Of a stretch of DNA of 64,000 nucleotides, positions 3,885 through 28,338 are shown piece by piece (within the stretch, counting starts at the first letter, position 1; each line of letters starts with the position of its first letter). Location of the stretch: the NCBI GenBank assembly GCA_022601195.1, contig JAHZIX010000005.1, positions 124,001 through 188,000 on the forward strand, in the 5' to 3' direction. A program made the position numbers and the translations under genes. Origin of the DNA: Deltaproteobacteria bacterium (GTDB lineage Bacteria; Acidobacteriota; Thermoanaerobaculia; Multivoradales; JAHZIX01). Under the pieces are notes generated by a model, which worked only from the letters and a program-made list of their open reading frames with translations, did no database searches and had not been told where the DNA came from.

Positions 3885-3925
3885 GGTTCCGGCATGCTAG
3901 CAGAAACCATTTCATCTACTGGAAC

Positions 3926-3958
3926 CAAAAACCCCCGCCGGGTCAGGCGGGGGTTTTT
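3926..3958 (-). terminator. Rho-independent terminator after the M36 gene
   Basis: The arms AAAAACCCCCGCC and GGCGGGGGTTTTT pair perfectly around a 6-nt loop (GGGTCA). The A/T runs at both ends make it potentially bidirectional. It sits between the stop of the M36 protease gene (4006) and the start of the dehydratase gene (3884), both on the minus strand, so it should separate the two transcripts. Confidence 0.88.
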
Positions 3959-4005
3959 GTGGGTGTGCCCTGTGGGCAGCGACCTAGGTCGCTCGGTTCG
4001 CGACC

Positions 4006-6390
4006 TTAGGGGAAGGTCAGGGTCCAAGCGCTGGTGTCACCACTCTCGAAGCCATCCGAAAAGATGGCGTTGGCATTGCAGTCTGCCGGAGGAAGGAAGC
4101 TTTCGACTTCATCTCCTAAGACGTTGACACTACCGGAGCTGGCACCTTCACCCATACCGCGGGCGGCAAAGGCATTCCAGATCAAGCAGCGGTTGGTGCC
4201 ACCGGTGAGGGCCAATTCCGCCGCCAGGATGCCATCCCGGCCGGCGATGAATCCCGGTCCGCAGGGCTGCATTTTCAATCCCTCGGTGACTACGTCATTG
4301 GCCAGGTTGTTCCCACCGGTGCTGGCCGTGAAGTCGGCGTTGAATCCGTAGGTGTCGACGTAGCCCCAGTACATATCCCAGGTGATGGCTGCCCAGACGG
4401 AGCCGACTCCATGGGGAACAGCGACACCGGTGCCAATGGTGGCAAAGGTGTCAGGGTTGATTGCCGTATCCGTGCTGTAGGGGAAGCGCCGAATGCCGGG
4501 TCCCGTGGGCGGCTGGTAGGCCACGTAGGGAGCGATGCCTCGGGCCTGGGTGGCGGTGTCCGTATCCTTGGCGGTCAGCACTAAACCATACCAATCGCTC
4601 CAGCCCTCACCCATCTGTTCTTGGGTGCCCAAACAGCCTGAATTGGCCGGGCCACCGGTGAGTCGGTTGGAGATACCGTGGCCGTATTCATGGACGATCA
4701 CCGTGTTGTCGTTATCACTATCTCGGTTGGGAACAGAGGAGCCAAGGGACTTGACCGTGGCGTTGACACCGCCACCGACCAGAACCTCGGCCTTGATGAT
4801 GTCGCCGTCTTCCATGCTAATCATGCCGGCGGAGATGGTGAGGCCACCTGGGTCCGCGCCACCCAGAGTGATGGGAGGACCGCCGGCGTTGTTGACGATC
4901 ACCGCCGCAGAAGCGGAGGCTGCCTGGGCGTTCTGGACTTTTTGCACGAAGGAACAAGCGCCCCGGTCGATGAGAGCGATGCGGCCAGCGGTAAAGCCCA
5001 CGAGAGCCTGACAGCCGTCGTTCACGGACCCGGTGCCCCCTTCGTCGTCCCCATCGTTGACGTACTCGACGTCACCGGTGATACCGGTGGTATCGAAGGC
5101 GGGGCCAAAGTTGGCTCCGGATGTCGTGTAGTCGCCGGCGATGGGTCCCGGTGAGTTGACTTGAGTGACATTGGGGAAAGGGTTGGTCCAGATGAACATT
5201 TGCATGCGCGGGTCGAGGCCATCCGGGGGAGTGGCAAAGTTCGCGTTGTTGGTGCCGGAGCCGTCTTGGGCATCCGCCTGTACCGGGTCACCGCCGGCTC
5301 CACCGTTGCCATAGTTGTTGGTCTGGAAGTTACCGCTGGCTTCGTCGAAGCCGTGGTACCACATGACATCGTGGATGATGTTGTTCCAATAAAACAGATT
5401 GACGATGGCTGCTTCTTGGTTGGTGGCATCCGTCGGTCCCATGGTGCCATCGAAGGCGAAGTCATAGTCGTTGCCGGCACCGCCGGAAGGACGGAATCCG
5501 GGGACGTTGTTGGCGTCCGTATCCTCGCTCGCTTCTACGTTGTTGCCGCGAGTGTCGGTGAATTCGGCACCTGCGACGCCATCGGTGTCGTGCCAGCCGA
5601 ACTCGGACGCGGAGCTATCCGCCGGGTCTGTCACCACGACATGGGCGCCATCTTCCGGATCGGTCAGGGGCGAAGGAAAGACGCGGTAGGAGTCGGCAGC
5701 GATCCAGTCATTTTGATCGAGAATGTCGCCGTTGCTGGCGTCGACTCGCAGTTGCCACCAATTCTCCCCGTTATGGAGGCGAAGGCCGACATTCCAAGCT
5801 AGCTGAACAGAGCCGTCTTCCTGTTTTTGGTAAACCAACCGGGCAGGAATTTCCTCCTGGGAGATTCCACCGCTGGAAAGCAGTACCTCGTTGGCAGGGC
5901 CACCGATAGTCTCGATGGGCACCAAGGCTTCGGAGATCTCCAACTCCAGGTGAAAGGCGGCCCGTTGGACGGCCTCTTCCGCTGACAGGGTGGCGGCCCG
6001 GTCGGAATCCGTCGACGCCAAGTCGGAAACCCAGCTATTGCCCAGGTGGACGATGCGTCCGTCCGGCATGACGTGGAGATTCAAGATGCCGTTGTAGACC
6101 TCGACACCTTGCAGTCGCTGTTGGAGGTAGATGTGGGTGACTCCCGACTTCCTGGATACGTACCGGTCGGAGACGAGGAGATCCTGGAAGTCCTCGGCAG
6201 TGAGACCCAGTGCCTGATGGTTGCTAGTAGCGTAGCCCAAGGCAATGTCGAGGGCGTCTCCCTTGGCGGGGCCGCTCAGGAATCCGTTCGAGTCTTTGAG
6301 GTTGGCTGCGTCTGCAGCGGTGGCGGGTAGCGGGGCCAGGGCGATCCAACCGGTGGCTAGCACCAGGGAAGCCATCTGGAGAATTTTCAT
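4006..6390 (-). CDS. Secreted M36 (fungalysin-type) metalloprotease with PA insert
   Basis: A 794-residue exported zinc protease. Start ATG 6390 (MKILQM) has AGGAG 8 nt upstream and opens a signal peptide ending near ATAADA; the same frame stays open upstream to 6624 but lacks a signal there. An FTP-type propeptide covers about residues 45-125. The catalytic motif HEYGH is at 567-571, with the third zinc ligand E595 in GEGWSDW. A protease-associated domain (about 450-545, with ALIDRGACSFVQKV) precedes the catalytic motif. The protein ends in the tail IFSDGFESGDTSAWTLTFP, shared with two other secreted proteins in this window. It probably degrades extracellular protein. The gene is a single transcript ended by the terminator at 3926-3958. 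Confidence 0.93.
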   Translation of the reverse strand: MKILQMASLVLATGWIALAPLPATAADAANLKDSNGFLSGPAKGDALDIALGYATSNHQALGLTAEDFQDLLVSDRYVSRKSGVTHIYLQQRLQGVEVYNGILNLHVMPDGRIVHLGNSWVSDLASTDSDRAATLSAEEAVQRAAFHLELEISEALVPIETIGGPANEVLLSSGGISQEEIPARLVYQKQEDGSVQLAWNVGLRLHNGENWWQLRVDASNGDILDQNDWIAADSYRVFPSPLTDPEDGAHVVVTDPADSSASEFGWHDTDGVAGAEFTDTRGNNVEASEDTDANNVPGFRPSGGAGNDYDFAFDGTMGPTDATNQEAAIVNLFYWNNIIHDVMWYHGFDEASGNFQTNNYGNGGAGGDPVQADAQDGSGTNNANFATPPDGLDPRMQMFIWTNPFPNVTQVNSPGPIAGDYTTSGANFGPAFDTTGITGDVEYVNDGDDEGGTGSVNDGCQALVGFTAGRIALIDRGACSFVQKVQNAQAASASAAVIVNNAGGPPITLGGADPGGLTISAGMISMEDGDIIKAEVLVGGGVNATVKSLGSSVPNRDSDNDNTVIVHEYGHGISNRLTGGPANSGCLGTQEQMGEGWSDWYGLVLTAKDTDTATQARGIAPYVAYQPPTGPGIRRFPYSTDTAINPDTFATIGTGVAVPHGVGSVWAAITWDMYWGYVDTYGFNADFTASTGGNNLANDVVTEGLKMQPCGPGFIAGRDGILAAELALTGGTNRCLIWNAFAARGMGEGASSGSVNVLGDEVESFLPPADCNANAIFSDGFESGDTSAWTLTFP

Positions 6391-7248
6391 CTTCTCGTCT
6401 CCTGCATGAATGGAGTCAATCTTGAGTTGGTTTGACCAACGGACATCACCTATGAGCCAATCTGAGAACCTATCGGTCTGAGAGGGCAGGTATCTCCTCT
6501 GGCGGAGGGTCGTTGCCAGGACCAGCAGCTGGAGGAAATAGCGGCCTCGGACTTCAAAACAAGTGGCTAGCAGAATATCACAGCTCACAAATGTTGTAGG
6601 CGGAGCTCGTTTCTTAGCTGTCACCAGACAGCTCTAAATCTATGATCTTGAGTTATTTAGAGGCTTCATGGTGGGACGCTTGTGGAAAACCGCTGCCTAG
6701 AGAGGGGGGCGGTATTGAGGCGGTATTTAATCCGCTGCTTCAAGGCATTGATTTTAAATGGTTTAGGTTTCTTGCACAAAGATCTGTTCAATCCGGGCAA
6801 ACCCCCATGAAATCTAGGTTCATGGCTCCAAGGGGGGAGTTTTCCACAGAGTTTTCGACAGCTCCTGTGGATCCATAACAGGAACCTTACCTCGGTGACT
6901 TCGGCTCCCTTTTGTCTTCAACGAGGGGGAATGCTCTCAAGACTCGATGAACTAAGGATTTGCGCTCTTTTCTCGAGCCTCCGAAGCCTCCCGTGAGGTT
7001 CCAATGGCAGGGAGGAAGGCCAGAGGAGTTGCCAGGGGACGCGAAAACGTCCCGGAGCTTGGGACCGTCCACCGGCACACATTAACGGGCCCAGATGGAC
7101 GAGGAGTCCCTTCCCCTGTTTTCGCCTATGGGAACTCTCTGGAATCGGATATGATCCTCGGGTTACAGCGGTTCCATTTGAAGTCGTTCTGCAGGTCTCC
7201 CCTAAGGTGGAGATAAAGGTTACGGTTCACAGGTTTGGAGGGTCGCCC
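6391..7248. other. Gene-free stretch with DnaA-box-like sites
   Basis: I see no convincing gene in these 858 bases; it separates divergent M36 and glutamate dehydrogenase genes, so both promoters should lie here. Nine-mers fitting the DnaA-box consensus TTWTNCACA occur at 6840-6848 (TTTTCCACA) and, on the other strand, at 6681-6689. One-mismatch or weaker copies are at 6852-6860 (TTTTCGACA) and 6866-6874. An AT-rich patch (about 6722-6785) lies between them. This could be a DnaA-responsive promoter or, less likely, an origin-like element; dnaA and dnaN are not in the window. Confidence 0.35.
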
Positions 7249-8664
7249 ATGTCCGGGAGGATCAGTTTCTTCGCCCAGGTCAATCGGAATTTTGACAAGG
7301 CAGCGGCATTTACGGGTCTCGGCCGAGACCTGCTCAGGCAGATCAAGCAGTGCAATTGTGTCTACCAGGTAGTCTTCCCTCTAAAGCGAGATGATGGCTC
7401 TATCGAGGTCATTCGCGCTTATCGGGCCGAGCACAGCCAGCACAAATTGCCCACCAAAGGTGGAATTCGCTATGCCCCCAACGTCAATGAGGACGAGGTC
7501 AAAGCCCTATCGGCTCTGATGACCTACAAATGCGCTGTCGTGGACGTTCCTTTCGGTGGCGCCAAAGGGGGGATCAAGATCAATCCTTGGAAGTACTCCG
7601 AAGCGGAGTTAGAAAGGGTGACCCGTCGCTACACCGTCGAGTTGATTCGAAAGAACTTCATCGGTCCCGGTATTGATGTGCCCGCTCCGGACTTTGGTAG
7701 CGGCGCTCGGGAAATGTCTTGGATCGCCGATACCTACATGATGATGTCCACCGGAGAGTTAGATGCCATGGGCTGTGTGACCGGCAAACCGGTGGCCCAG
7801 GGGGGAATTCGAGGGCGGACGGAAGCGACCGGTCTCGGGGTTTTCTACGGTATTCGGGAAGCCTGTAGCCAGCCGGAGGATATGAAGCAGATCGGTCTGG
7901 ACCCAGGGATGGAGGGCAAGCGGGTCGTGGTGCAGGGCTTGGGCAACGTCGGCTATCACGCAGCCCGTTTCATCCAAGACGCGGGAGGGGTTCTGGTGGG
8001 ATTCGCCGAGTACGAGGGGGCTATCTACAGCTACAAGGGCCTCGACCTCGAAGCCGTGATGAATCACCGAAAAGAGACCGGCTCGATTCTCGATTTCCCA
8101 GGGGCAAAAAATCTACCCAACTCTTCGGATGCCCTGGAGCTCGACTGCGACATCCTGATTCCTGCAGCCCTGGAGAATCAGATCCATAGCGAGAACGCTC
8201 CCCGAATCAAAGCCAAGGTGATCGCCGAGGCAGCTAACGGACCCGTGACTTCGGATGCTAGCGAGCTTCTCAAAGAACGGGGCGTTCTGGTTATTCCAGA
8301 TAACTTCCTCAATGCCGGAGGCGTCATCGTCTCCTACTTCGAATGGATCAAGAACCTCTCCCACGTGCGTTTTGGCCGTATGGGCCGCCGCTTCGACCAG
8401 CAGGCCTACCAACGGCTGCTCAAAGGGGTGGAGCAGGCCACGAACCATAGTTTTTCTGAGGCCGAGTACACGGAGCTGGCGCGTGGCGCAGACGAGCTCG
8501 ACCTGGTGCGTTCGGGATTGGAAGACACGATGGTGACCGCCTATCACTCCATTCGCGAGATCAAGCTGCAGAAGGGGGAGAAAGCCGACCTCCGAACCGC
8601 AGCCTTCGTTGATGCCATCACGAAGGTGGCTCTGTGCTACCAGGAACTTGGCATCTTCCCGTAG
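7249..8664 (+). CDS. Glu/Leu/Phe/Val dehydrogenase (glutamate dehydrogenase)
   Basis: A 471-residue NAD(P)-dependent amino-acid dehydrogenase. Substrate-binding PTKGGIRYA (68-76), the catalytic lysine region VPFGGAKGG (about 100-108) and the dinucleotide fold GLGNVG (230-235) are all present. It would interconvert glutamate with 2-oxoglutarate and ammonia, linking amino-acid degradation to the TCA cycle. I chose ATG 7249 (MSGRISFF), preceded by GGAGGG at 6 nt, rather than an upstream in-frame start at 7207. The iron alcohol dehydrogenase starts 16 bp downstream, so the two probably form an operon. The family may also use other amino acids, so substrate is inferred. Confidence 0.92.
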
Positions 8665-8680
8665 TCTCGAGGTAGCCACC

Positions 8681-9835
8681 TTGCAGCCCTTCCGAATCCC
8701 GACCCGAGTCGTCATCGAACCCGGAGCCTCGTCTCGTGTAGCGGAGTCCCTCTCCGCTTGCGGGGTGAAACCTGGGAGTTCCGTTCTGCTGGTTCTGGAT
8801 CGAGGCCTGGCTGAGACTCCCTGGGCAGAGAAGGTCGCCCAACAGATAATCGCGGCTGGGTTCTCGGTGCACCGCTTCGACGGTGTGGAAAACAATCCTC
8901 GGGTTCCTACCGTCGAGGCACTGGCTGAGAATGCCCGGGAGGAAGGCGTTCAGGGGGTGGTTGGCCTAGGTGGAGGGAGTGTCTTGGACGCTGCCAAGGC
9001 AGTGGCGATGCTGGCGGTCAATGGCGGGCGCTGCGAGGACTATGAGGGAGCCGGTCGGTTCGACGAGAAGCCTCTACCCTTCGTCGCACTGCCGACCACC
9101 TGCGGTACCGGTTCCGAGGTCACCTGGGTATCGGTGCTGACGGTGCGAGAGCGGCGCACGAAGATCAGTATCAAAGGGGACGGTATGTTCCCGGACTTTG
9201 CCCTGGTGGACTCAGACCTTCTCACCACCTTGCCGCCCCAGTTGGTGGCTTGGACAGGGCTCGACGCCCTGACTCATGCTTTGGAAGCCCGGACGGTCAC
9301 CCTAGCCAACCCGATCTCTGACGCTTTGGCAACCCGCGCCATCGAGATGTTGTTTCGATACCTGCCTCGGGCGGTCGAGGACATCGCCGGCGATAGGGAA
9401 GCTCGGGATGCGGTCATGACGGCTTCTACCCTCGCTGGAATGGCTTTCGGAAATGCCGATGTAGGGGCAGTGCACTGCCTTTCCGAGACTCTCGGCGGTC
9501 TTTGGGATGTTCATCATGGCTTGGCCAATGCGATTCTCTTGGCACCGGTCCTGCGGGCCCATGGAAAAGCTGTGCAAGGGCCCCTGGCCAGCTTGGCGGG
9601 ACTCGTGGAGGGAGGCGGTGATCTGGCCCATCCAGGCGCCCGAGCGGAACATTTCCTAACTGCCCTGGATGCTTTGGTTGTGGAATTGAAAGTACCGACT
9701 TTTTCATCTCTCGAGCTCGATTCCGAGGGCTATCAGGAGATCGCTGAACGAGCGGTGACCAACGGTTCGAATTCTTCCAACCCCCGTCCCATGGGGAAAA
9801 GGGACTACCTAGAGATCCTCCGCAGCTTGGTCTGA
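8681..9835 (+). CDS. Iron-containing alcohol dehydrogenase
   Basis: A 384-residue group III alcohol dehydrogenase. The NAD-binding GGGS motif is at 97-100 with D103, PTTCGTGSE lies at 138-146, and the iron ligands fit D195, H199, H265 and H278 (DALTH, VHCLSE, DVHHG). The start is TTG 8681 with GAGGT 6 nt upstream; an in-frame ATG at 8609 would overlap glutamate dehydrogenase by 56 bp and is less likely. It should interconvert an alcohol and an aldehyde with NAD(P)H; the substrate cannot be read from sequence. It is downstream of gdh and its last 27 bases overlap the tail of the convergent gene at 9809. Confidence 0.9.
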   Translation: MQPFRIPTRVVIEPGASSRVAESLSACGVKPGSSVLLVLDRGLAETPWAEKVAQQIIAAGFSVHRFDGVENNPRVPTVEALAENAREEGVQGVVGLGGGSVLDAAKAVAMLAVNGGRCEDYEGAGRFDEKPLPFVALPTTCGTGSEVTWVSVLTVRERRTKISIKGDGMFPDFALVDSDLLTTLPPQLVAWTGLDALTHALEARTVTLANPISDALATRAIEMLFRYLPRAVEDIAGDREARDAVMTASTLAGMAFGNADVGAVHCLSETLGGLWDVHHGLANAILLAPVLRAHGKAVQGPLASLAGLVEGGGDLAHPGARAEHFLTALDALVVELKVPTFSSLELDSEGYQEIAERAVTNGSNSSNPRPMGKRDYLEILRSLV

Positions 9836-10786
9836 GCAGTAGCGCTCCATCAGGTCGGTTTGCAGCTGACCGAGCCAGAAATCGTCGAAGACGAACTGTA
9901 GGAATAGGCGTTTGTCTTCTGGCTCCAGGGCCACTTTGGTTTCGACCCATTTCCCCAAAAGCTCTCCTTCCGCAGCGGGCAAGTAGTACCGAGCGACATA
10001 CCTTCCAGAGAGGAACATAGGCTCCCAGGCGGCGAATAGAGAATAGGGTCGGTCCGCCTGACGGCAGATATCGGAACCTCTCTGGCGGTGCAGACGAGCG
10101 CTGCGTTCCAACTGATTCGCCACGGAGATGGTATGCCCACCGAAAGCGGCGAGGCCATTGAGATAGCCCTCGAGGCGGGCCGCTGTCGCTACATTGGGGA
10201 GCAGCTCGGTGGCTCTGTCTCGTAACAATTGAGCGTAGGGAGCGCCGGTATCTAAGACATGGAGCCGAAGGTAGGCCAAAAGGAGTTCGTGGAATAGGTA
10301 GTCCGTCGAATCTACAGTGAGATCTGTCAGAGCCAAGGGCTGATCGGTCTCCCGGTAGGCCGATGCCCGCAGATAGAGCGTTGGGGCCCTCTGCCCCTGT
10401 CCCTGGGCTTGGCCCGGAGGCGAAGAGGGGAGCTTCGGCGCCGGAAGAAAAGGCAGCGGCTGGAGGGCAAAATGGGCCAAAGCGAGTCGTGGCTCTTCGT
10501 GAAAGATGACTTCCAGATCCGGGGCGATCTGGCGGGCGAAACGCAAAGGAAGGTGCTCGGTGCTCCCCTCGGCGAGGAGAACTTTCTCGAGGTCCGTAGG
10601 GGCTGTGGTGACCTCGTTGGGAGGGAGCCTGTCTCGTGGAAGGCTCTGGCCGGAAACGACGAGGCCGGGGAGAAGGACAAGGAGGGACGATAGAATCTTC
10701 AGTCTCCCGGATCTGGTAGCATTCCGCAACGGCGGTTCGCAGCCTGGAACACAAGACTCGGTGGGATTTTCTTGGCCTTGGGGCAT
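9809..10786 (-). CDS. Hypothetical exported protein
   Basis: A 325-residue protein I do not recognise. ATG 10786 (MPQGQENP) has AGAGG upstream; the frame continues farther upstream to 11089 but would then overlap the divergent S9 peptidase gene. A hydrophobic segment (RLKILSSLLVLLPGLVVSG) near residues 27-45 looks like a signal or anchor, followed by a Pro/Gln-rich patch and then a mostly helical region rich in Leu, Tyr and Arg. No catalytic motif is seen. The tail-to-tail overlap of 27 bp with the alcohol dehydrogenase is normal for convergent genes. Confidence 0.7.
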   Translation of the reverse strand: MPQGQENPTESCVPGCEPPLRNATRSGRLKILSSLLVLLPGLVVSGQSLPRDRLPPNEVTTAPTDLEKVLLAEGSTEHLPLRFARQIAPDLEVIFHEEPRLALAHFALQPLPFLPAPKLPSSPPGQAQGQGQRAPTLYLRASAYRETDQPLALTDLTVDSTDYLFHELLLAYLRLHVLDTGAPYAQLLRDRATELLPNVATAARLEGYLNGLAAFGGHTISVANQLERSARLHRQRGSDICRQADRPYSLFAAWEPMFLSGRYVARYYLPAAEGELLGKWVETKVALEPEDKRLFLQFVFDDFWLGQLQTDLMERYCSDQAAEDL

Positions 10787-10841
10787 TCTCTGGTGCCTCT
10801 CAATTTGATTTTTTGTGCTCGAATAAACTGCGGAGAAAAAC

Positions 10842-12977
10842 TTGCAAGTCGTGAAGGAAGTGTTACACGGCATCGAGGTTACCGACGAATATCGTTGGCT
10901 CGAGGGCAGTGACGCACCGGAGATATCGGAACCGGATCCGACTCTCGATGCTCGGGTATCTCGGTGGACCAACGAACAAAATAAGCGCACCAGATCCGTT
11001 CTCGATTCTCTTCCCGGCCGGCAGAGCTTGGAGGAGAGGCTAAGGCAGCTCTTGGAAGTTGGCCAGGTCGCTAGCCCAATGGTCCGCAAGGACCGCTACT
11101 TTTTTTGGCGGCGCCAAGGTGGTCAACCCCAGTGGAGTATCGAGTTTCGTCAGGGGCCCCATGGGGAGGGGCGGGTCCTTTTGGATCCCAATGCTCTAGA
11201 TCCAAAGGGTCATACGGCCCTCGGCTCCTTTATGCCCAATCAGGATGGCACTCTAGCGGCTTTTACCCTATTTGAAGCCGGTGATGAGAATACGACTCTC
11301 TACCTCCTGGAGGTGGATTCGGGCAATTGGCTGTCTGACGAGATTCCCGGCAAGGTAGAAGGCATCTACTGGCTGCCGGATTCGTCAGGTTTTCTTTACC
11401 ATTGCCTCGCGGACGTCGATGACCCTTATTCTCGCGAGATCAGAATGCATCGGGTGGGCTACCACCATCGCTGGGACGTGGTCCTGGTAGAACAAGACAA
11501 AGAGGGCCCCCTAGCGACCACTTGGGGGCCCTTCGCCAGTTTGAGCGAAGACGCCCGTTGGTTATTGCTCGGCTATTGGACTGGCACCGACTCCAACGAC
11601 GTTTGGGTAGTGGATTTCCAGCGCTGGCAGCAGACCGGTGAGTTTGAACGCCAAGAGATCATCGTGGGAGAGGCAGTGGTGAGCTCCGGCTTGTTCTCCG
11701 GCAATACACTCTTCCTCAAGACCAGTCTGAATGCTCCCAATAGCCGAGTGCTTGCGGTGGATCTCCTGGACCCACGGCCGGAGGCTTGGCTCGAGGTGGT
11801 GCCGGAGCGTCCTGGGGCCATTGTGGAGAATGTCTCCCTAGCGAAAGAGATCCTGGCCGTTCGTCTTTTGGAGAACGCGGCGAGCCGGATTCTGCTTTAC
11901 CACTTCGACGGTACCCTCCGAGGCGAGTTGGAGTTGCCGGGAGTCGGCTCCGCCTCGTTGAGCACCTCCATGGATCGGTGTGAGGCCTTTCTCACCTTCG
12001 AGAGTTTCGACCTTCCGCCGACCATCTACCTGGTGGATTTGGACAGCGGGGATCGCAAGCTGTTGGCGAGGCCGGAGATTCCCCTAGGGGAGCTATCCTT
12101 CGAGGTGCGCCAGGTCTGGTTTCCATCGAAGGATGGTGTCGACATCAGTATGTTTCTGGTCCACAGGAAGGGCTTGGAGCTCAATGGGAAGGTTCCGACC
12201 CTTTTGGGGGGGTACGGTGGATTCGGGATTTCACTGACGCCATCTTTCGATGTTCGAATGCTCCCCTGGTTGGAAGCCGGTGGAATTTGGGCAATCGCCA
12301 ACCTTCGGGGCGGTGGGGAGTACGGTCAGTCCTGGCACGCAGCGGGAATGTTGGGGAGAAAGCAGAACGTCTTCGACGACTTTATTTCTGCGGCCGAGTG
12401 GTTGATCCAGAATGGCTATACGAGCTCTTCCCATCTGGGAATTCGTGGTGGGTCCAACGGAGGGCTCCTGACCGGGGCAGCCTTGGTGCAGCGGCCGGAG
12501 CTGTTCGCTGGTGTCCTTGCTGCTGTTCCCCTACTCGACATGGTTCGCTATCAGCACTTCCTGATGGCCCGGTACTGGGTGCCCGAATATGGCACCAGCG
12601 AGAATGAGGAACAGTTTCGCTACCTCTTACAGTATTCCCCGTACCACAACGTGAAGACAGGTATTCGGTACCCCGCGGTGCTGCTCACGGCCGGGGAGAA
12701 CGATGTGCGTGTCCATCCTCTCCACGCCCGAAAAATGGCGGCGCGGTTGCAGGCTTCTTCCGTGAGTGATCCGGAGCAGGATCCCGTTCTACTTTGGGTC
12801 GATAGCGTCGCCGGTCACGGCCGGGGCAAGCCCCTGGCGGCACAGATCCAATCCGTTGCCGACGAATTGGGATTCATGATGTGGCAACTGGGAGTTCCGA
12901 GTCCGTCCCGTAGCCATCCTCGAACCGGTGGCCCCGGGGCCGAGTCGGCGTCCGGTCGGATCGAAGCTGCCTACTAG
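10842..12977 (+). CDS. Prolyl oligopeptidase family serine peptidase (S9A-like)
   Basis: A 711-residue enzyme with the S9A layout: a short N-terminal segment, a seven-bladed propeller (about 70-430) and a C-terminal alpha/beta-hydrolase domain. The catalytic triad is S538 in GGSNGG, D621 in GENDVRV and H659 in AGHGRGK. It lacks a signal peptide, so it should be cytoplasmic, cutting short peptides after proline or acidic/basic residues depending on subtype. The start is TTG 10842 with GGAG 6 nt upstream and an in-frame stop just before. The start lies 55 bp from that of the divergent secreted protein gene, so their promoters share that gap. Confidence 0.92.
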   Translation: MQVVKEVLHGIEVTDEYRWLEGSDAPEISEPDPTLDARVSRWTNEQNKRTRSVLDSLPGRQSLEERLRQLLEVGQVASPMVRKDRYFFWRRQGGQPQWSIEFRQGPHGEGRVLLDPNALDPKGHTALGSFMPNQDGTLAAFTLFEAGDENTTLYLLEVDSGNWLSDEIPGKVEGIYWLPDSSGFLYHCLADVDDPYSREIRMHRVGYHHRWDVVLVEQDKEGPLATTWGPFASLSEDARWLLLGYWTGTDSNDVWVVDFQRWQQTGEFERQEIIVGEAVVSSGLFSGNTLFLKTSLNAPNSRVLAVDLLDPRPEAWLEVVPERPGAIVENVSLAKEILAVRLLENAASRILLYHFDGTLRGELELPGVGSASLSTSMDRCEAFLTFESFDLPPTIYLVDLDSGDRKLLARPEIPLGELSFEVRQVWFPSKDGVDISMFLVHRKGLELNGKVPTLLGGYGGFGISLTPSFDVRMLPWLEAGGIWAIANLRGGGEYGQSWHAAGMLGRKQNVFDDFISAAEWLIQNGYTSSSHLGIRGGSNGGLLTGAALVQRPELFAGVLAAVPLLDMVRYQHFLMARYWVPEYGTSENEEQFRYLLQYSPYHNVKTGIRYPAVLLTAGENDVRVHPLHARKMAARLQASSVSDPEQDPVLLWVDSVAGHGRGKPLAAQIQSVADELGFMMWQLGVPSPSRSHPRTGGPGAESASGRIEAAY

Positions 12978-13183
12978 AGGCCGTCGGTGATCGGGTCAGA
13001 TCCCCTTCCTTCGTTCCTTCCTCGAACGGACCCTCGTCGCTTACGGTAAGCCCGCCTGACAGAGATCTGGGTCCGGTCAAGACACTCTGGTCTAGACATT
13101 TGCAGAAGGGCCTTTTCTCCCCAGCCGAGTCGAGTTTCTTTGCCCAGCGATGTGCAGTCTCGTGACCTACGATTCGCACGCCA

Positions 13184-13648
13184 CTAGCTCTTCTTAGCAG
13201 AACCTCGGGCTCTCAGCTTAGAGGCAATGAAGTCTTTGTGGGGAATGTGGAGCAAGTGCTGGATCTTGCGCATGAGGTGTTCTTCGTGATGGTCCAACTT
13301 GCCGTCCGCAAAGGCGACTCCCCATAGCAATTCCATGATGCTCACCTTGTCCTCCGGGGTGAAGTTCTGGTGCACCAGATTGGTGAACTCGAAGAGGGAG
13401 ACCGATTCATCCGCCTCTCGCTCAGCCAGCTCAACGAGCTCGGAAGTCGCTGTAGGGTCGAGACCCAACAGCCTGGCCAGGGAGGCTTCCACAGCTCTCT
13501 TCTCGGTCTCGTGGACTTCGAAATCACTGCGCACGACCTCGATGAAGAGGGCCGCTGTTGCCAAGTGAAGGGCCTGTTCGGCATTCTCCGGCTCCGATTG
13601 GGGCCGCAGGATTTTTTGTTCGAAAAACTGTTGAATGGATTTGAGCAA
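13184..13648 (-). CDS. TerB-like helical acidic protein
   Basis: A 154-residue protein with the TerB/DjlA N-terminal-like helical fold: an ATAALFIEVVRSDFEVHETEK segment and a second FADGKLDHHEEHLMRKI segment, the two D-x-E repeats seen in TerB domains. The start is TTG 13648, 8 bp after the cytochrome gene stop (13657) and preceded by GAGG at 6 nt; a longer frame up to 13852 would overlap that gene. In the family the conserved acidic residues are thought to bind metal, but function is unclear. The tight spacing suggests co-translation with the diheme cytochrome. Confidence 0.78.
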   Translation of the reverse strand: MLKSIQQFFEQKILRPQSEPENAEQALHLATAALFIEVVRSDFEVHETEKRAVEASLARLLGLDPTATSELVELAEREADESVSLFEFTNLVHQNFTPEDKVSIMELLWGVAFADGKLDHHEEHLMRKIQHLLHIPHKDFIASKLRARGSAKKS

Positions 13649-13656
13649 GGGCTGCC

Positions 13657-14460
13657 TCAAGGTTGGTTCCGGATGGGGTCTTTCCGGGATGAATAATAAG
13701 AGCGAGTGGCCTTCACCCAGGCCCATAACTGCTGAAGCTCGACCTCGTCTAGGGCCTCCCCGTAAGCGGGCATAGAGAGTTTCTGGCGGCGGAAGAAGAA
13801 GGCGGCCACCGAGTTCGATTCCAGCCGCTTTAGGGTACCGGTTCGAACCCATTCCTGAAATTCCTGCTCATTGCGGACCAGGTCGGTGAAGTTCTTTCCG
13901 AGGAACCCTGGAATAAATCCTCCCATGGACCCGGGATTGGGTTGCCCGCCGGAGCCCTCGACACCGTGGCAGGATAGGCAACCGTGGCGCAAGGCCAAGG
14001 TCCTTCCGGCGCTTGCCTCATCCCCTCCGGGCTGAATGAGGGCTTCTTCCGCCGCCACGTAGGCGACCAGATCGCTGAGTTCTCCGGAGGAAAAGTGGTC
14101 ACCGTAGGCTGGCATCCGAATCGGCTGTCTCTCCAACCGTTGCCGTATCTTTGAGTCTGCCAGCCAAGAAAGGGGAGCACCATGAGAGATAAACTCTTCG
14201 ATCTCCCCGACATCGGCTGCGTACATCATGGCATTGCCGGCTCGAAAACGCGGCACCGTACCCCAGCGGCTACCAGGATTGCCTAGCTCTTTGGAGCCGT
14301 AGGGCAAATGGCAAGTCCAGCACCCATTCTCTCGAGCGAGTTGCTGGCCGGCTAGGATGGGATTGGTCTCCCATTTCAGAAGTAGCCAGCGGAACGACCC
14401 GGGGATCGCTAGGAGGAGAATGGAGGCGAGGAGGAGCAGTAGCTTCCAACGGCGGTGCAT
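13657..14460 (-). CDS. Membrane-anchored diheme c-type cytochrome
   Basis: A 267-residue protein with an N-terminal membrane helix (KLLLLLASILLLAIPG) and two heme c motifs, CWTCH and CLSCH, each followed by a downstream Met in a loop (RMPAYGDHF, SMPAYGEAL) that could be the sixth ligand. The two heme domains look like tandem cytochrome c modules of the electron-transfer type, facing the periplasm. I favour ATG 14460 (MHRRWK); GTG 14487 in the same frame is possible, since neither has a clear ribosome site. It is directly followed by the TerB-like gene. Confidence 0.85.
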   Translation of the reverse strand: MHRRWKLLLLLASILLLAIPGSFRWLLLKWETNPILAGQQLARENGCWTCHLPYGSKELGNPGSRWGTVPRFRAGNAMMYAADVGEIEEFISHGAPLSWLADSKIRQRLERQPIRMPAYGDHFSSGELSDLVAYVAAEEALIQPGGDEASAGRTLALRHGCLSCHGVEGSGGQPNPGSMGGFIPGFLGKNFTDLVRNEQEFQEWVRTGTLKRLESNSVAAFFFRRQKLSMPAYGEALDEVELQQLWAWVKATRSYYSSRKDPIRNQP

Positions 14461-14588
14461 GAGAGAGGTGCAAGGGAGCTGCCCCACCCCTCTCTGCGAG
14501 GAAAGTCCTCTCTCTCGAGAGGCCCTTTCCGGGAATCAAAGGGGGAGGGGTGAGAGCCCGTGTCGCTTGTTTTAGATGCGATAAGAGA

Positions 14589-14969
14589 TCAGGCGGCCGC
14601 TTTCGAGCCAGTCACATTGATCATCTTCATGCCACCTTTCTCAGCGAGGCTTCCGGTCACCGAAGCGTTCTCACCGGCGAGGTCTTTGAGCGCTTCGAAG
14701 GGTGCACCGTCTTTGTGATCCGCGGTGAGCAAGTAGACGACGCCGTCATCGGTGAGTAGACCCATAGGTTGGCCATTCTTGACGCAACTCTTGGCGCATC
14801 CCGCATGGGCCTCTCCCTTGGCGCCTTTGGGGATGTAGCAGGCGATATCGATGACTTCGCCGGTCCAGGTCATCACGGCGTCGGAGCTGTCTTCTGCCAG
14901 GGTTGTGGAAGTCAGGCCGAAGGCCGCGAGAAGGCCGAGCATCATGGTCGCTAACAGGATCTTCTTCAT
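14589..14969 (-). CDS. Small secreted protein with conserved cysteines
   Basis: A 126-residue protein with a clean signal peptide (MKKILLATMMLGLLAAFGL, cut near TLAED). The mature part has an OB-like beta pattern, TGEVIDIACY, then GCAKSCVKNGQP and LLTADHKDGAPFEALKDL. The three cysteines could bind metal or form a disulfide. I recognise this as a recurring small exported protein type but do not know a function. Start ATG 14969 has AAAGGA upstream. It lies alone, separated by about 130 bp from the cytochrome gene on the same strand. Confidence 0.8.
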   Translation of the reverse strand: MKKILLATMMLGLLAAFGLTSTTLAEDSSDAVMTWTGEVIDIACYIPKGAKGEAHAGCAKSCVKNGQPMGLLTDDGVVYLLTADHKDGAPFEALKDLAGENASVTGSLAEKGGMKMINVTGSKAAA

Positions 14970-15109
14970 AGCGGTATTCCTTTCAGGGAGCCGGGGGATT
15001 GGATCTTCGGGCTCAGCAGCCCGACTTCGAGAGTAGAAGCTTAACAGACGAATTTCTCTGGCCCGGTAGTGGACTGGGCGGGAGATCTCTTTCCCAACGC
15101 GGGCGCGAT

Positions 15110-16477
15110 ATGATCTCGCTCACTATGAGTGAGTTGTTACCGGACCCGGATCTGGATGAGTTGGTGCAGGTTCTCAATCGGTCGTCGGCGGGCTCGAAGA
15201 CGGAGCTCCAGCCATCACCCCAAGACCTGCCACGGGAAAACCTGCCCCTGGAAGAAATTGCCCCCAACGAGGCCTTGCGCGGAGTTCTGGCTCCCCAGGG
15301 GGAAGCGGGCCTAGACGTTCAAAGAGGTAACTCGGCATCGGCTTCGCTGCTCCCAGAGCAGTCCACCGCTGTTCAGGCTGGGCTCTTGGAACCCTTGTTT
15401 CAAGACCTGGCCGAGACCGGGGCGAGCGATCTTCTGCTGGTGCCTGGCGAGCCCCCGGTGTTGCGCCTTCACGGACACCTCCGCCGTTCCCAGCGGCCCA
15501 CCTTGACCCCTGAGGATATGACAGCCCTCTTCGAGCCCTATCTCGGTGGCTACCGGAAGCAGAAGCTGGAACAGCGGGGTTCGGTAGACTTTTCCCTGAC
15601 CTGGGAGGCAGCACGATTTGGCGCCGGTGGCGCCAGTGATTCCGGCAAGACCACTCGGAGATTTCGCATCAATCTGCATCGGCAGCGGGGGAGCCTTGCG
15701 GCAGCGGTGAGGGCGCTACCGAGTGAGATTCCCAGTCTTGAGAGTCTAAATTTGCCCAACAGCCTAGCGTCCTGGGGGACGACAGCCCAGGGTTTGGTCC
15801 TGCTCTGTGGGGCAACGGGATCTGGCAAGTCCAGTACGTTGGCGGCCTTGGTGGCAGAGATCAACCGGACTCGGGCTTGCCATATCGTCACCATCGAAGA
15901 TCCTGTGGAGTATGTACACCCGCCGGGGAAATCGGTGGTGGAGCAGTTGGAGGTGGGCCGCGACACCCCGAGTTTTGCCGAAGCCCTACGCTCGACCTTG
16001 CGCCAGGACCCGGATGTCATCCTGGTGGGGGAGATGAGAGATCTGGAGACCATCTCCGCGGTACTTACAGCGGCGGAAACGGGGCATTTGGTTTTTTCCA
16101 CGCTCCATTCCGGTGATAGCACCCGGGCCATCTACCGCATGGTCGACGTCTTCCCGGCGCAACAGCAAGCTCAGGTCCGCCACCAACTGTCCCAAGCCCT
16201 GAGCGCTATCGTAGTGCAACACCTCATCCCGAGAATTGGTGGTGGCGGCAGGGTGCCGGCGGTCGAGATTCTTCGAGCCACCTATCCGGTACGGCATCAC
16301 ATTCGCCGACAGCAATTCGAGAAGCTATACAACGAGATTCACCTAGGCCAACGCCAAGGTATGCGCACTCTCGAAGCTTCCTTGGCGTCTTTGGTTTCGG
16401 CCGGAGCTATCCATGTGGACGAAGCTCGGTTGCGGGCCAATCACCCTGAGGAGTTAGAGACCCTTCTTGGAGTTTGA
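15110..16477 (+). CDS. PilT-like type IV pilus ATPase (paralog 1)
   Basis: A 455-residue GspE/PilT-superfamily ATPase. The ~100-residue N-terminal extension is hydrophilic and of low complexity. The core has Walker A GATGSGKSS (about 235-243), the Asp box IVTIEDPVEY, Walker B ILVGEMRDLET (about 303-313) and the His box HLVFSTLHSGDSTRA. In the family hexamers drive pilus retraction. Compared with standard PilT it carries a short Gly/Ser insert (about 168-178) before the N-domain strand. The start is uncertain: ATG 15110 or 15125, or TTG 14999. It stands apart from the pilT pair at 49-51.6 kb and has no pilus gene next to it. Confidence 0.85.
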   Translation: MISLTMSELLPDPDLDELVQVLNRSSAGSKTELQPSPQDLPRENLPLEEIAPNEALRGVLAPQGEAGLDVQRGNSASASLLPEQSTAVQAGLLEPLFQDLAETGASDLLLVPGEPPVLRLHGHLRRSQRPTLTPEDMTALFEPYLGGYRKQKLEQRGSVDFSLTWEAARFGAGGASDSGKTTRRFRINLHRQRGSLAAAVRALPSEIPSLESLNLPNSLASWGTTAQGLVLLCGATGSGKSSTLAALVAEINRTRACHIVTIEDPVEYVHPPGKSVVEQLEVGRDTPSFAEALRSTLRQDPDVILVGEMRDLETISAVLTAAETGHLVFSTLHSGDSTRAIYRMVDVFPAQQQAQVRHQLSQALSAIVVQHLIPRIGGGGRVPAVEILRATYPVRHHIRRQQFEKLYNEIHLGQRQGMRTLEASLASLVSAGAIHVDEARLRANHPEELETLLGV

Positions 16478-16662
16478 TCCCTCTTTTGAGGGTGCGACTC
16501 CAGTTGTCGGACCTGATAGGATGCGTTTTCCAGAAATTCGTTGCCGATCGCGCAACGTGACCTGGATGCCCTGATGATCCCTGGCAATCGACTCAGGTCG
16601 ACACCACATTACATCCCCACAGGATCTCAGGGTGTCCAAACTCAACTCAGGAGACGAAGACT

Positions 16663-25105: not shown

Positions 25106-25250
25106 TCTTCTCACCGCTACAGTTCTCGCCAGGCCTCGTTTCCCTCGCCTTAACCAAAGGATGAGGGATTCCCTCGATTCCTTTCGCGTCGTTGGTTGAA
25201 GGAAAACAACCGAGGGCCGTCCATCGGCTCTCCAGATGGGAAAGGACAAT

Positions 25251-26453
25251 ATGAAATTCTCATTTTTCGTTTCTGCCTTGGCAATCGTCGCGGCGGTGGT
25301 GACCGGCCCTGCTGCCTGGGGGATCGTTAGCGCGAACCCGGCATCCGGTGATCCCAACGTACCAGACCCCCACTTGGTGACGGGTCTGTTCGATATCAAT
25401 CAGCATGTGTTTCTGCTGACCGATCTACCAGCCATCAATCCGGATGGAGTCGTAGAGATCGAAGTGTTGAGAACGGATCGTTCTCTGACCTGTTCGGCGG
25501 CAGTGATACATACCCCGACTGGTCCCCAGAACAGAGCGGTTCTCACTGCAGCTCACTGTGTTGATGACCCTCGGGTGCGCCAGGTTTCGGTAGAGATCGA
25601 CGAGCAGGGCTTGCCGACGACCTATCAAACCTGTCACGGCGATGCCCCGGGCTGCGTGTTGTCGGATCAGGTGCTAGTTCATCCGTCCTATGTGGGAGTC
25701 AGGTTTGGCTACGACCTAGCTCTGATCTATTTCGAGTCTCCAATGAGCGGCCTGGCGACTGCCTACCAGGTGAGCGATTCCTCGACCCAGCCCTTTGGCC
25801 CAGGTCTCTTCGTGAAATTTGGCTTCGGGTGTAGCGGCTACGGCGGCGACGGGGTTGATGATTGCGACTTGAATTCCTACGACCACCAAAAGCGCTGGGC
25901 GGTAAATCGCTGGGATTCTCTTGGTCTGGGAAACTTCGGAGTGGAAGTGGATGGAACCCCCTTTCTCAATAACCATACTCAACTGGTGTTGGACTTCGAT
26001 AAATTCACCCAGATAGACAACAATCTCTTCAATTTCTATCAAAATACCTTTGACCCAGCCACGGGTTATATCGAAATCGATAACCAAGCGTATTCCTGGG
26101 GAGTGGGCGGTGGGGAAGGATGGGGCTGTGCTGGAGATTCCGGCGGTCCTAATTTCGTCTTCGACCTAACGACCAGTACTTGGGTGATCCGCGCCGTCAA
26201 CTCATACGTCCTGCGTATGGATGATGACTACCCTGGGTTCGCCGGCAACTCAGACTTCACCGCATTCTCCGGTAGTTGTTCCGGGACCGGGCGTGACTTC
26301 TCCTTTGGTGAGTTCGAAGGAGATGCGCTGGTCACTCGGTCTTTGCTCGATCAAGTTCTCGGTCTCGCTCCCACTTCTCCCACGCCCGTTGCGAAAGGGA
26401 AGGTAGAGCCGAACCATGGGGCTATGGGTTTCCCGCCTCCCTCCCAGCGGTGA
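25251..26453 (+). CDS. Secreted trypsin-like serine protease (S1)
   Basis: A 400-residue exported protease. The signal peptide starts at MKFSFFVSALAIVAAVVTG. The chymotrypsin triad is H102 in TAAHC, D155 in YDLAL and S297 in GDSGGP. A ~140-residue stretch between Asp and Ser is longer than in trypsin. ATG 25251 has AAAGGAC just upstream; ATG 25236 in frame is less well placed. The gene is followed after 78 bp by two mini-ORFs on the same strand with strong ribosome sites and no visible promoter, so they may share its transcript. Confidence 0.9.
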   Translation: MKFSFFVSALAIVAAVVTGPAAWGIVSANPASGDPNVPDPHLVTGLFDINQHVFLLTDLPAINPDGVVEIEVLRTDRSLTCSAAVIHTPTGPQNRAVLTAAHCVDDPRVRQVSVEIDEQGLPTTYQTCHGDAPGCVLSDQVLVHPSYVGVRFGYDLALIYFESPMSGLATAYQVSDSSTQPFGPGLFVKFGFGCSGYGGDGVDDCDLNSYDHQKRWAVNRWDSLGLGNFGVEVDGTPFLNNHTQLVLDFDKFTQIDNNLFNFYQNTFDPATGYIEIDNQAYSWGVGGGEGWGCAGDSGGPNFVFDLTTSTWVIRAVNSYVLRMDDDYPGFAGNSDFTAFSGSCSGTGRDFSFGEFEGDALVTRSLLDQVLGLAPTSPTPVAKGKVEPNHGAMGFPPPSQR

Positions 26454-26531
26454 GATTTTCACTCTGAAGATCCTTTTTAGAGATCTCCAGTTGAATCGAT
26501 AGAAAACTTTGTGGGAAAGGAGGTGAAAAGA

Positions 26532-26582
26532 ATGGCTACCAAGACCAAGATTCGTGCAGGAGTGTTCGTTTGGAATGATTAG
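26532..26582 (+). CDS. Mini-ORF 1, candidate peptide MATKTKIRAGVFVWND
   Basis: A 16-codon ORF ending in TAG. It is preceded by AAAGGAGGTGA (26516-26526), a perfect 11-nt Shine-Dalgarno sequence 5 nt before the ATG, the strongest ribosome site I saw in the window. It aligns without gaps to the second mini-ORF 74 bp downstream: K4, T5 and I7-R8-A9-G10 are identical, and five of these six codons differ only at the third base. That pattern suggests selection on the peptide. I do not recognise it. A leader-like N-terminus and variable Trp/Asn C-terminus would fit a modified-peptide precursor, but no modifying enzyme is next to it. Confidence 0.6.
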   Translation: MATKTKIRAGVFVWND

Positions 26583-26656
26583 CCGATAGAAGCTTCGGAA
26601 GAATGGCTCGGGGAGTTCCGAACCATTTTCGAAAAACAACTCTTGGAGGACTCGAG

Positions 26657-26716
26657 ATGAAGCAGAAAACGACGATTCGCGCCGGTATGCGGATCGAGAT
26701 CATCGGTCTGGGCTAA
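26657..26716 (+). CDS. Mini-ORF 2, candidate peptide MKQKTTIRAGMRIEIIGLG
   Basis: A 19-codon ORF ending in TAA with GGAGG (26646-26650) about 6 nt before ATG 26657. It shares K4-T5-x-I7-R8-A9-G10 with mini-ORF 1 and then diverges to a hydrophobic Ile/Gly end. An in-frame ATG at 26603 would add 18 residues, but the ribosome site favours the short form, which also has the same spacing to the shared core. Role unknown; see mini-ORF 1. No terminator is seen before the convergent lipoprotein gene. Confidence 0.55.
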   Translation: MKQKTTIRAGMRIEIIGLG

Positions 26717-26896: not shown

Positions 26897-28009
26897 TCAG
26901 TCCCCAGTTGGCCGGTGGTCCGCTTTCCAGCGGGCCACCCGGCCTTCTGATCCCGCTGCCCAGAGGCTACCGTCCGGGGCGGCGCTGAGGGTGTAGAAGC
27001 CTTCTTCCGAGAGCCGCTTCCAACGGGTACCGTCGTCTTCAGAGATGTCGCAGCCGGCACGGCCGCAGCTGACCCACGTTGGGTCGGGGCGGTAGTCTAG
27101 GAACACCACGGCGGCACGGTGGCCAGAGGGGGGGAGGGTCGAGGCTGGAGTCCAGGTAGTTCCGCCGTCCCGGGTGATGGCGAGAGAGCGTTCTGCCAGC
27201 TCCGGCTGCAAGTAGTCACCGCCGGCAGCGATGCCGTGGAGAGAGTCCCGAAAAGCGACCGAGAACACCCCTTGTGAGGCTTCCCCGTGGGCGAGGGGAG
27301 CCTCCGACACTTTCCAACTGGCGCCGAAGTCTTCGCTGTAGAGGACCCGGGCCGCGCCCCCTCCGGTGCCGAGCCAGGCACGACCCTTCGGTCCCACGGC
27401 GAGGTTGCTGCCGCTGGCGGCGAAACCGGCTTCTCCCTCCCGGGGAACCGGTAGACTGGCGATGGGGAGCCGTTGCCAGCTACGCCCTCCATCACGGGTC
27501 TCGAGTAGCAAGAAGTTTCCTTCAACCGGGTCACTCATCACCAACCCCCTTTGGTCGTCCCAGAAGGCCATGGCGTCAAAAAAGGCGCCAGGGTAGGAGC
27601 TCTCATGAACGAGGGAAAAGGACTGCCCTCCATCCTCTGTACGGTACAGCCGAGCCGGCTGGCCGGCGGTCATGAGGACGGCGACGCCGTTCCCCAAAGC
27701 CTGTACGTCGCGGAAGTCGAGGTCCTCTCCTCCCAGCACCAGAAGGCTCTTCCAGGTCTGTCCACCGTCTTCCGTGCGCAGGACGGTGCCACCGGTGCCG
27801 CTCGCCCAGGCGGTTTCTCGATCGACGGCACTCAGTCCCCGTAGGCTTGCGGTGGAGCTGGTATCGAAACTCTCCCAGCTTCCCTCGGAAGGTTTTTGTG
27901 CCTCCGCCGATTCAGCTTGACTCGACTGGTGGTGGGAGCACGCCAGGGGGCCTAAGCAAAGACCGATGACTGAGGCGGCGAGGAAAGATCTCATTTGGAG
28001 GATGTTCAT
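26897..28009 (-). CDS. YCF48/BNR-repeat beta-propeller lipoprotein
   Basis: A 370-residue lipoprotein with lipobox GPLAC (Cys24). Repeated S/T-x-D-x-G-x-(T/S)-W motifs (RTEDGGQTWK, RTEDGGQSFS, TRDGGRSWQ, SEDFGASWK, TRDGGTTWT, SEDDGTRWK) give about six Asp-box blades, as in the photosystem II assembly factor YCF48 and sialidase-like propellers. In heterotrophs such proteins are of unknown role, probably scaffolding on the cell surface. ATG 28009 gives a standard lipoprotein signal; the longer frame to 28069 would put 20 extra residues before it. Confidence 0.87.
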   Translation of the reverse strand: MNILQMRSFLAASVIGLCLGPLACSHHQSSQAESAEAQKPSEGSWESFDTSSTASLRGLSAVDRETAWASGTGGTVLRTEDGGQTWKSLLVLGGEDLDFRDVQALGNGVAVLMTAGQPARLYRTEDGGQSFSLVHESSYPGAFFDAMAFWDDQRGLVMSDPVEGNFLLLETRDGGRSWQRLPIASLPVPREGEAGFAASGSNLAVGPKGRAWLGTGGGAARVLYSEDFGASWKVSEAPLAHGEASQGVFSVAFRDSLHGIAAGGDYLQPELAERSLAITRDGGTTWTPASTLPPSGHRAAVVFLDYRPDPTWVSCGRAGCDISEDDGTRWKRLSEEGFYTLSAAPDGSLWAAGSEGRVARWKADHRPTGD

Positions 28010-28338
28010 GGCGCCAGTGTACCTTGTGTCCCAGGAAGTAAGTCTTTTGCCGTTCAGCCACGGTTTCATCCTGGCCTGCTTTGTTGCTTCTCCTCACCTT
28101 GGTAACGGCTCTGAGCTCGTTGTGAGACGCCGGATAGAGTGGAAACGCAGTTGCAGTATTCTTGTAAGATCTGGTGACTGCATATATCCTCGTTCCACCT
28201 AATCGGAATCCGGGCAGAGCCTGCCTCGTTTTTGCTCTCGTCACGCCATCTGGCTGCCGTGCCAGTGGAGAGATTGAGAGAGGTCAATGAAGCAAGGGCT
28301 CCTTTCCCGAACCTGCCCCCCCGGGAGGAGATCTCGAT

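Follow-up and report, generated by a model that had tools for sequence, protein, structure and literature searches.

Prochlorosins are known for many precursors in which a shared leader is joined to diverse cores and which lie away from the shared machinery, precursors of the NHLP type carry a long leader, and RRNPP signalling relies on short secreted peptides and TPR receptors of the HTH-TPR type. For double-glycine substrates of PCAT exporters, the leader ends in GG, GA or GS, with hydrophobic residues at positions -4, -7 and -12 (accessible text of PMC10885120), and in a graspetide precursor GG is the site where the C39 domain cuts (accessible text of PMC13039773; also PMC8939145). Here we describe two mini-ORFs that, judged by their sequences, belong to a widespread unannotated family, M-x-x-K-T-x-[VI]-[KR]-A-G followed by a variable tail. 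They are probably minimal precursors, and an exporter acting in trans would read the ten-residue leader, cut it after Ala-Gly and secrete the tail.

The window, that is, the whole 64-kb stretch of DNA analysed (G000:C28:124001-188000), comes from a genome of 8.0 Mb in 52 contigs, and coordinates are those of the window unless a locus is named. The initial annotation had noted tandem mini-ORFs, and both are indeed present, each with a ribosome site. ORF A (26532-26582, +) encodes the 16-residue product MATKTKIRAGVFVWND and ORF B (26657-26716, +) the 19-residue product MKQKTTIRAGMRIEIIGLG, with a spacer of 74 bases between them:

26516..26526, + strand: ribosome-binding site of ORF A, AAAGGAGGTGA (from the sequence)
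26532..26561, + strand: predicted ten-residue leader of ORF A, MATKTKIRAG (from family alignment A1; putative leader role)
26562..26582, + strand: predicted core of ORF A, VFVWND, with stop codon TAG (from the sequence; putative core role)
26645..26649, + strand: ribosome-binding site of ORF B, GGAGG (from the sequence)
26657..26686, + strand: predicted ten-residue leader of ORF B, MKQKTTIRAG (from family alignment A1; putative leader role)
26687..26716, + strand: predicted core of ORF B, MRIEIIGLG, with stop codon TAA (from the sequence; putative core role)

The arrangement resembles PCAT/AMS systems in having a C39-peptidase ABC protein with an HlyD partner and a leader followed by a variable core, and the mini-ORFs share with PCAT substrates Gly at -1 and a hydrophobic residue (V/I) at -4. 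They differ in that the leader ends in AG (or SG) rather than in GG, GA or GS; AG was found in 18/18 aligned mini-ORFs, a figure partly imposed by the search patterns. Furthermore, position -7 is K in 18/18 (imposed) and a leader of ten residues has no -12, which departs from the hydrophobic signature of those substrates. As in NHLM/NHLP systems (TIGR03796, TIGR03797), two ABC proteins are found with HlyD, and the relatives' ABC proteins have these two models among their best matches. The scores, however, are 163.9 against a cut-off of 853.3, 105.2 against 709.4, or lower, the G017, G451 and G449 proteins, scanned with NCBIfam, stay far below both cut-offs, and the mini-ORFs lack the long leader of the NHLP type. 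The likeness to prochlorosins is one of organization, with a shared leader and diverse cores distant from shared machinery, but here the machinery would be an exporter and not a lanthipeptide synthetase.

A trypsin-like protease gene (25236-26453) lies upstream of ORF A on the same strand, and the next large gene downstream of ORF B (26897-28069) is on the opposite strand. No modifying enzyme, ATP-grasp ligases included, was recognised among five neighbouring proteins tested, so the predicted tails may be unmodified. Between 26300 and 26950 we found no sigma-70-like promoter and two terminator-like sites against 1.2 expected, both on the other strand. The spacer holds an inverted repeat, TTCGGAA...TTCCGAA (26595-26629).

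These surroundings bear on the suggestion that the mini-ORFs are regulatory leader peptides or attenuators. Their small size and strong ribosome sites would suit such a role, and in two relatives, G031 and G063, a terminator-like hairpin, read by eye, stands between the peptide and HlyD. We nevertheless regard this explanation, which the initial annotation had listed, as very improbable: the large gene that comes next in the window runs the other way, relatives precede unrelated genes, the spacer folds no better than its shuffles (54/200), Rfam gave no match in the window, and the motif is repeated inside longer proteins and also precedes microviridin cores.

Within the window by itself, two copies of the motif are no more than mildly unusual, since the degenerate motif was observed twice against 0.20 expected and 2/100 shuffles reached two, as chance ORFs with an accidental resemblance might. 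The relatives lift the pair far above chance. A start-anchored pattern, M-x-x-K-T-x-[IV]-[KRQ and others]-A-G, which required neither a ribosome site nor a short ORF, matched 11 places in 7/98 genomes, the window's own included, and none in the reversed control, giving 9 further members in 6/97 other genomes (examples among the 11 are MQVKTKVKAGFDLEDY, MKTKTRVKAGAMPHMIHQG, MTIKTQVKAGQSAAVIFE and MKVKTNIKAGADAWD). All 11 are ORFs of 15-35 aa preceded by a ribosome-site string; in nine of the sequences such strings precede 310/4353 ATGs (7.1%), and 11/11 corresponds to a p value of about 2e-13 for strings that were picked after the 11 matches had been seen. With ribosome sites at 11/11, no control match, a family in the databases and co-occurrence with an exporter in two groups of genomes, accidental resemblance is hardly credible.

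The initial annotation had inferred selection on the peptide from the codons, and its count is correct: the shared residues are K, T, I, R, A and G, and five of the six codons differ only at the third base, ATT being identical. The inference is borne out by the relatives, through the pattern matches, the alignment and the database relatives, as is the proposal of a precursor with a conserved start and a variable tail. Because the patterns required K4, T5, A9 and G10, the constancy of these residues in alignment A1 is circular and not independent evidence. V or I at residue 3, which the start-anchored pattern did not demand, does count as independent and occurs in 8/9 relatives from that pattern; the window peptides have T (ORF A) and Q (ORF B) there and R at residue 8, unlike most relatives. 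By simple counts, the codon changes are 11 synonymous and 8 non-synonymous between G017 and G009, and 3 and 1 between G033 and G044. The G033 and G044 copies have in common a single 152-base block, the peptide gene with about 100 bases upstream, in flanks that are otherwise unmatched, so gene and upstream region look like a unit moving or surviving alone.

Searches of wider scope gave a graded picture. Within the own genome, the pattern search returned 10 places (control 7), two of which are ORF A and ORF B; at the other eight, and in the exporter locus L117, there was no ribosome-site mini-ORF carrying the motif. Across the order, KTx[IV]KAG without the start anchor matched 16 places in 11/72 genomes (control 2 in 2 genomes); the 8 places new to this search were not ribosome-site mini-ORFs and were dropped. 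Among 396 genomes of the phylum, ten places outside the order (control 2) looked like background, being parts of longer ORFs or ORFs lacking a ribosome site. With a stricter pattern, G009 was the sole genome matched among 347 of the phylum (control 2), and G449 the sole one among 301 of the phylum to which it belongs (control 1). A scan of named contigs, whose pattern itself demanded V/I as third residue as well as a ribosome site, yielded seven mini-ORFs on four contigs (two of one Oscillochloris MAG, one of an Anaerolineae MAG, one of an Acidobacteriota MAG), including one tandem pair and one triplet, MKVKTKVKAGAGSYLDSLPKEYQAWLKSAGLS / MKVKTKVKAGRSRGRGDDEG / MKVKTRIKAGRRSKEDD. In one scan of viral contigs, using P0011, 8 stretches fitted the pattern, none of them confirmed as a relative.

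A profile of 18 mini-ORFs searched against 5.8 billion proteins gave 167 matches at E<=10. The 120 listed are mostly repeat proteins, with two motif copies in 94, three in 17 and one in 9, and an NHNQ/NHNE-like element occurs in 106 of them. Among these listed matches some tails recur in different backgrounds (FNPQP 7, IIVVC 6, RKAGG 5, GD[IVL]xIG-type 5), as if core modules were exchanged between them. Seven repeat-type relatives compared with NCBIfam had no match above cut-off, nor had seven compared with Pfam; one listed match of the repeat-type search, P0010, carries a precomputed PF13699.

Next to the peptides of G009 and G017 follows an exporter cassette in which HlyD is joined by two ABC proteins, the first with a Peptidase_C39 domain at its N-terminus and the second termed ABC2, and the same three genes accompany peptides in G450 and G903. 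On the Oscillochloris contig with three tandem mini-ORFs both ABC genes are present; in the stretch fetched from the Anaerolineae MAG the second ABC alone was found. Scoring the 12 best candidates per genome, we found the C39-ABC protein at E<=1e-60 in 16/71 genomes of the order, including all 8 that are peptide-positive by two patterns of unequal coverage (that of G009 was run on part of the order only). The exporter is thus present in 8/8 peptide-positive genomes against 8/63 others (Fisher p 1.2e-6; 2.5e-5 once G009 and G017, from which the idea of a link came, are left out; 0.0012 when counted by genus), although peptides were not found in 5/16 exporter genomes of the order.

In a second class, that of G450 (162 genomes), the pattern matched 17 places in 5 genomes, against 6 places in 5 other genomes for the control, so that single matches are near background. 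All 5 pattern-positive genomes fall within the 7 that are exporter-positive, that is, 5/5 against 2/157 others (p 2.4e-8; 1.5e-5 without G450 and G903; 7.9e-4 also without G908, whose match, L095, lacks a start codon and could be accidental). The exporter was found in 0/5 genomes of this class with reversed-control matches only. For both groups, relatedness among the genomes and their draft state weaken the statistics. The initial annotation had held that absence from close relatives would speak against the mini-ORFs. G001, of the same genus as the window's genome, indeed lacks a pattern match, but the exporter was not found there either, so joint gain or loss fits this genome better than a spurious ORF.

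The exporter of the window's genome is encoded on contig C2, in locus L117, as HlyD (7678-8868), C39-ABC (8875-11688) and second ABC (11681-13819). The C39-ABC protein scores 73.8 bits for Peptidase_C39 (cut-off 22) and 85.3 for ABC_tran (cut-off 25), and the Cys, His and Asp positions of the C39 type are kept (read by eye), so that it combines the N-terminal peptidase and ABC ATPase that define a C39-peptidase ABC exporter, an exporter type that is already known. In a PDB search with 444 matches, the best stretch covers the ATPase part in the 60 listed. Since none of seven cassette proteins had a tblastn match in the window, export in trans would be needed.

Linkage of peptide and exporter is partial. 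Fourteen exporter loci of the order were fetched, 13 with matches for all three genes, the contig of G038 ending before ABC2. A peptide was recognised beside 6/16 exporters of the order (G009, G012, where it sits beyond ABC2, G017, G019, G031 and G063) and 4/7 of the second class (G450, G903, G908 and G910). None was recognised at the other 13 (10/16 and 3/7), the window's genome among them; at two of these, G003 and G900, the contig ends near or inside the exporter genes. G063 has one copy, MKITTSLKAGQSLSVIVE, beside the exporter and a similar one, MTIKTQVKAGQSAAVIFE, elsewhere. In the linked loci of G031 and G063 (L125, L129) the hairpin before HlyD is G+C-rich and followed by a T-rich tail, as though transcription favoured the peptide over the exporter. 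Beside the exporter of G908 (L139:14052-14297, -), MKTEENIKNDEQATIEEKPEEKSEGGLKINTNVKAGGVLISD begins with a long acidic stretch, and the motif comes after it and not at the N-terminus.

Proteins with TPR domains raise another explanation, peptide-TPR communication, in which the exporter would release peptides that adjoining TPR proteins sense, as in RRNPP; the export step is common to both readings and only the function differs. TPR proteins adjoin repeat-type peptides in G450, G900 and G903 (54-56% alike) and in G019, with TPR_12 strong in three cassette proteins, the exporter of the window's genome has TPR-containing and HTH genes beside it, and the tails vary and are short. Such TPR proteins next to several cassettes, together with the TPR and HTH genes close to L117, make signalling a serious alternative to a bacteriocin-like role. 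The tested TPR proteins, however, have no HTH domain, so no receptor of the HTH-TPR type is among them, one has an RNPP_C match of 19.1 bits, below the cut-off of 26.5, many exporter loci show no TPR match with the G903 query, and similar tails are kept in sister species. We therefore see TPR sensing as possible but rather doubtful. In L117, TPR-type proteins flank the exporter on both sides (3671-7448 and 14293-16640), together with two unannotated secreted-looking proteins (459 and 479 aa) and an HTH gene.

Microviridins offer a view of the motif in a described family. Beside the exporter of G910 we found two microviridin-type precursors (NF033738 55.9 and 53.6, cut-off 26) with MvdC/MvdD ligases just above cut-off (425.3 against 425; 479.8 against 475); the precursor sequence runs ...PFFARYLEGQQFPQ-VKTGIKSG-LMTLKYPSD.... 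Among 120 listed of 121 matches to microviridin-like precursors, the motif precedes the core in 65, a share overstated because the query itself carried the motif, and so not a census. The listed precursors divide into motif alone (60), motif with a nearby GG (5), GG in the linker only (46) and neither (9), so that 46/55 of those without the motif have a linker GG. GG being the cut site of the C39 domain in a graspetide precursor, the motif, by analogy, most likely fills its role as leader end. The window peptides, for their part, lack the PFFAR helix and the TLKYPSD (TxKYPSD) core, and with no ATP-grasp ligase among the five neighbours the locus stands apart from graspetides.

Microviridins, which share the motif, inhibit trypsin-like proteases and are known as serine-protease inhibitors (accessible text of PMC13039773), and Trypsin (25236-26453) adjoins the mini-ORFs, so the peptides might act on this neighbour as substrates or inhibitors. 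This is quite improbable, for the protease is not conserved alongside the peptides, the tails have no core of the TLKYPSD type and no ligase was recognised among the five neighbours. The link to the upstream secreted protease drawn in the initial annotation likewise falls away: in 58 other genomes its only match is partial (E=8e-4), and peptides occur without it.

The reading of the mini-ORFs as precursors exported in trans draws directly on membership in the family, the ribosome sites, the joint presence of peptides and exporter in two groups of genomes, partial linkage, the C39 residues and the motif before microviridin cores. Under this hypothesis, the leader ending in KTx[VI][KR]AG would be recognised by the C39-peptidase ABC exporter encoded on another contig and cut after Ala-Gly, unlinked copies would be served in trans, and the variable tails VFVWND and MRIEIIGLG would be secreted and may act as signals or bacteriocin-like peptides. 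This would be a precursor in its smallest form, with a tag of ten residues and a product of six or nine.

A broader reading, to which we give an even chance, is that bacteria use KTx[VI][KR][AS]G as a second code for export and cleavage, separate from double-glycine and read by its own two-ABC C39 exporter, and that the ten-residue tag alone would be enough for an arbitrary short core to be trimmed and secreted. Three architectures would have this code in common: mini-ORFs (15-35 residues), microviridins, and multi-repeat proteins of the NHNQ/NHNE kind in which core modules recur. If this is true, a gene of about 50 bases, placed anywhere in a genome, is enough for a secreted peptide to evolve. 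For gene finders and peptide miners the motif would serve as a compact rule covering genes down to 45 coding bases; it would also point to a candidate leader protease for those microviridin-like precursors that have no GG site, and supply a very short tag for secretion. In the open literature (most subscription journals and all figures lie outside it) none of 13 KAG-type motif strings occurs, and the letters NHNET/NHNQT occur in 16 papers, all unrelated by title. In the same literature we found no description of an AG leader end lacking the -7/-12 pattern, of a ten-residue leader, of dispersed copies, or of a motif common to mini-ORFs, repeat proteins and microviridins.

On contigs of Oscillochloris and Anaerolineae (L096:3414-5486, L062:3868-6505, L060:5920-6624) the peptides have two neighbours in common: a Band_7 protein, for which the scan covered L096 alone, and a small membrane-type protein of 234-294 aa that has no Pfam match. 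In G903, an acidic repeat peptide, VEIELTVEEAEPIIAPG...NHNET (L093:8022-8297, -), adjoins the basic KTxVKAG/NHNQT peptides like a charge-reversed counterpart, and an O-methyltransferase gene (6907-7947) follows it.
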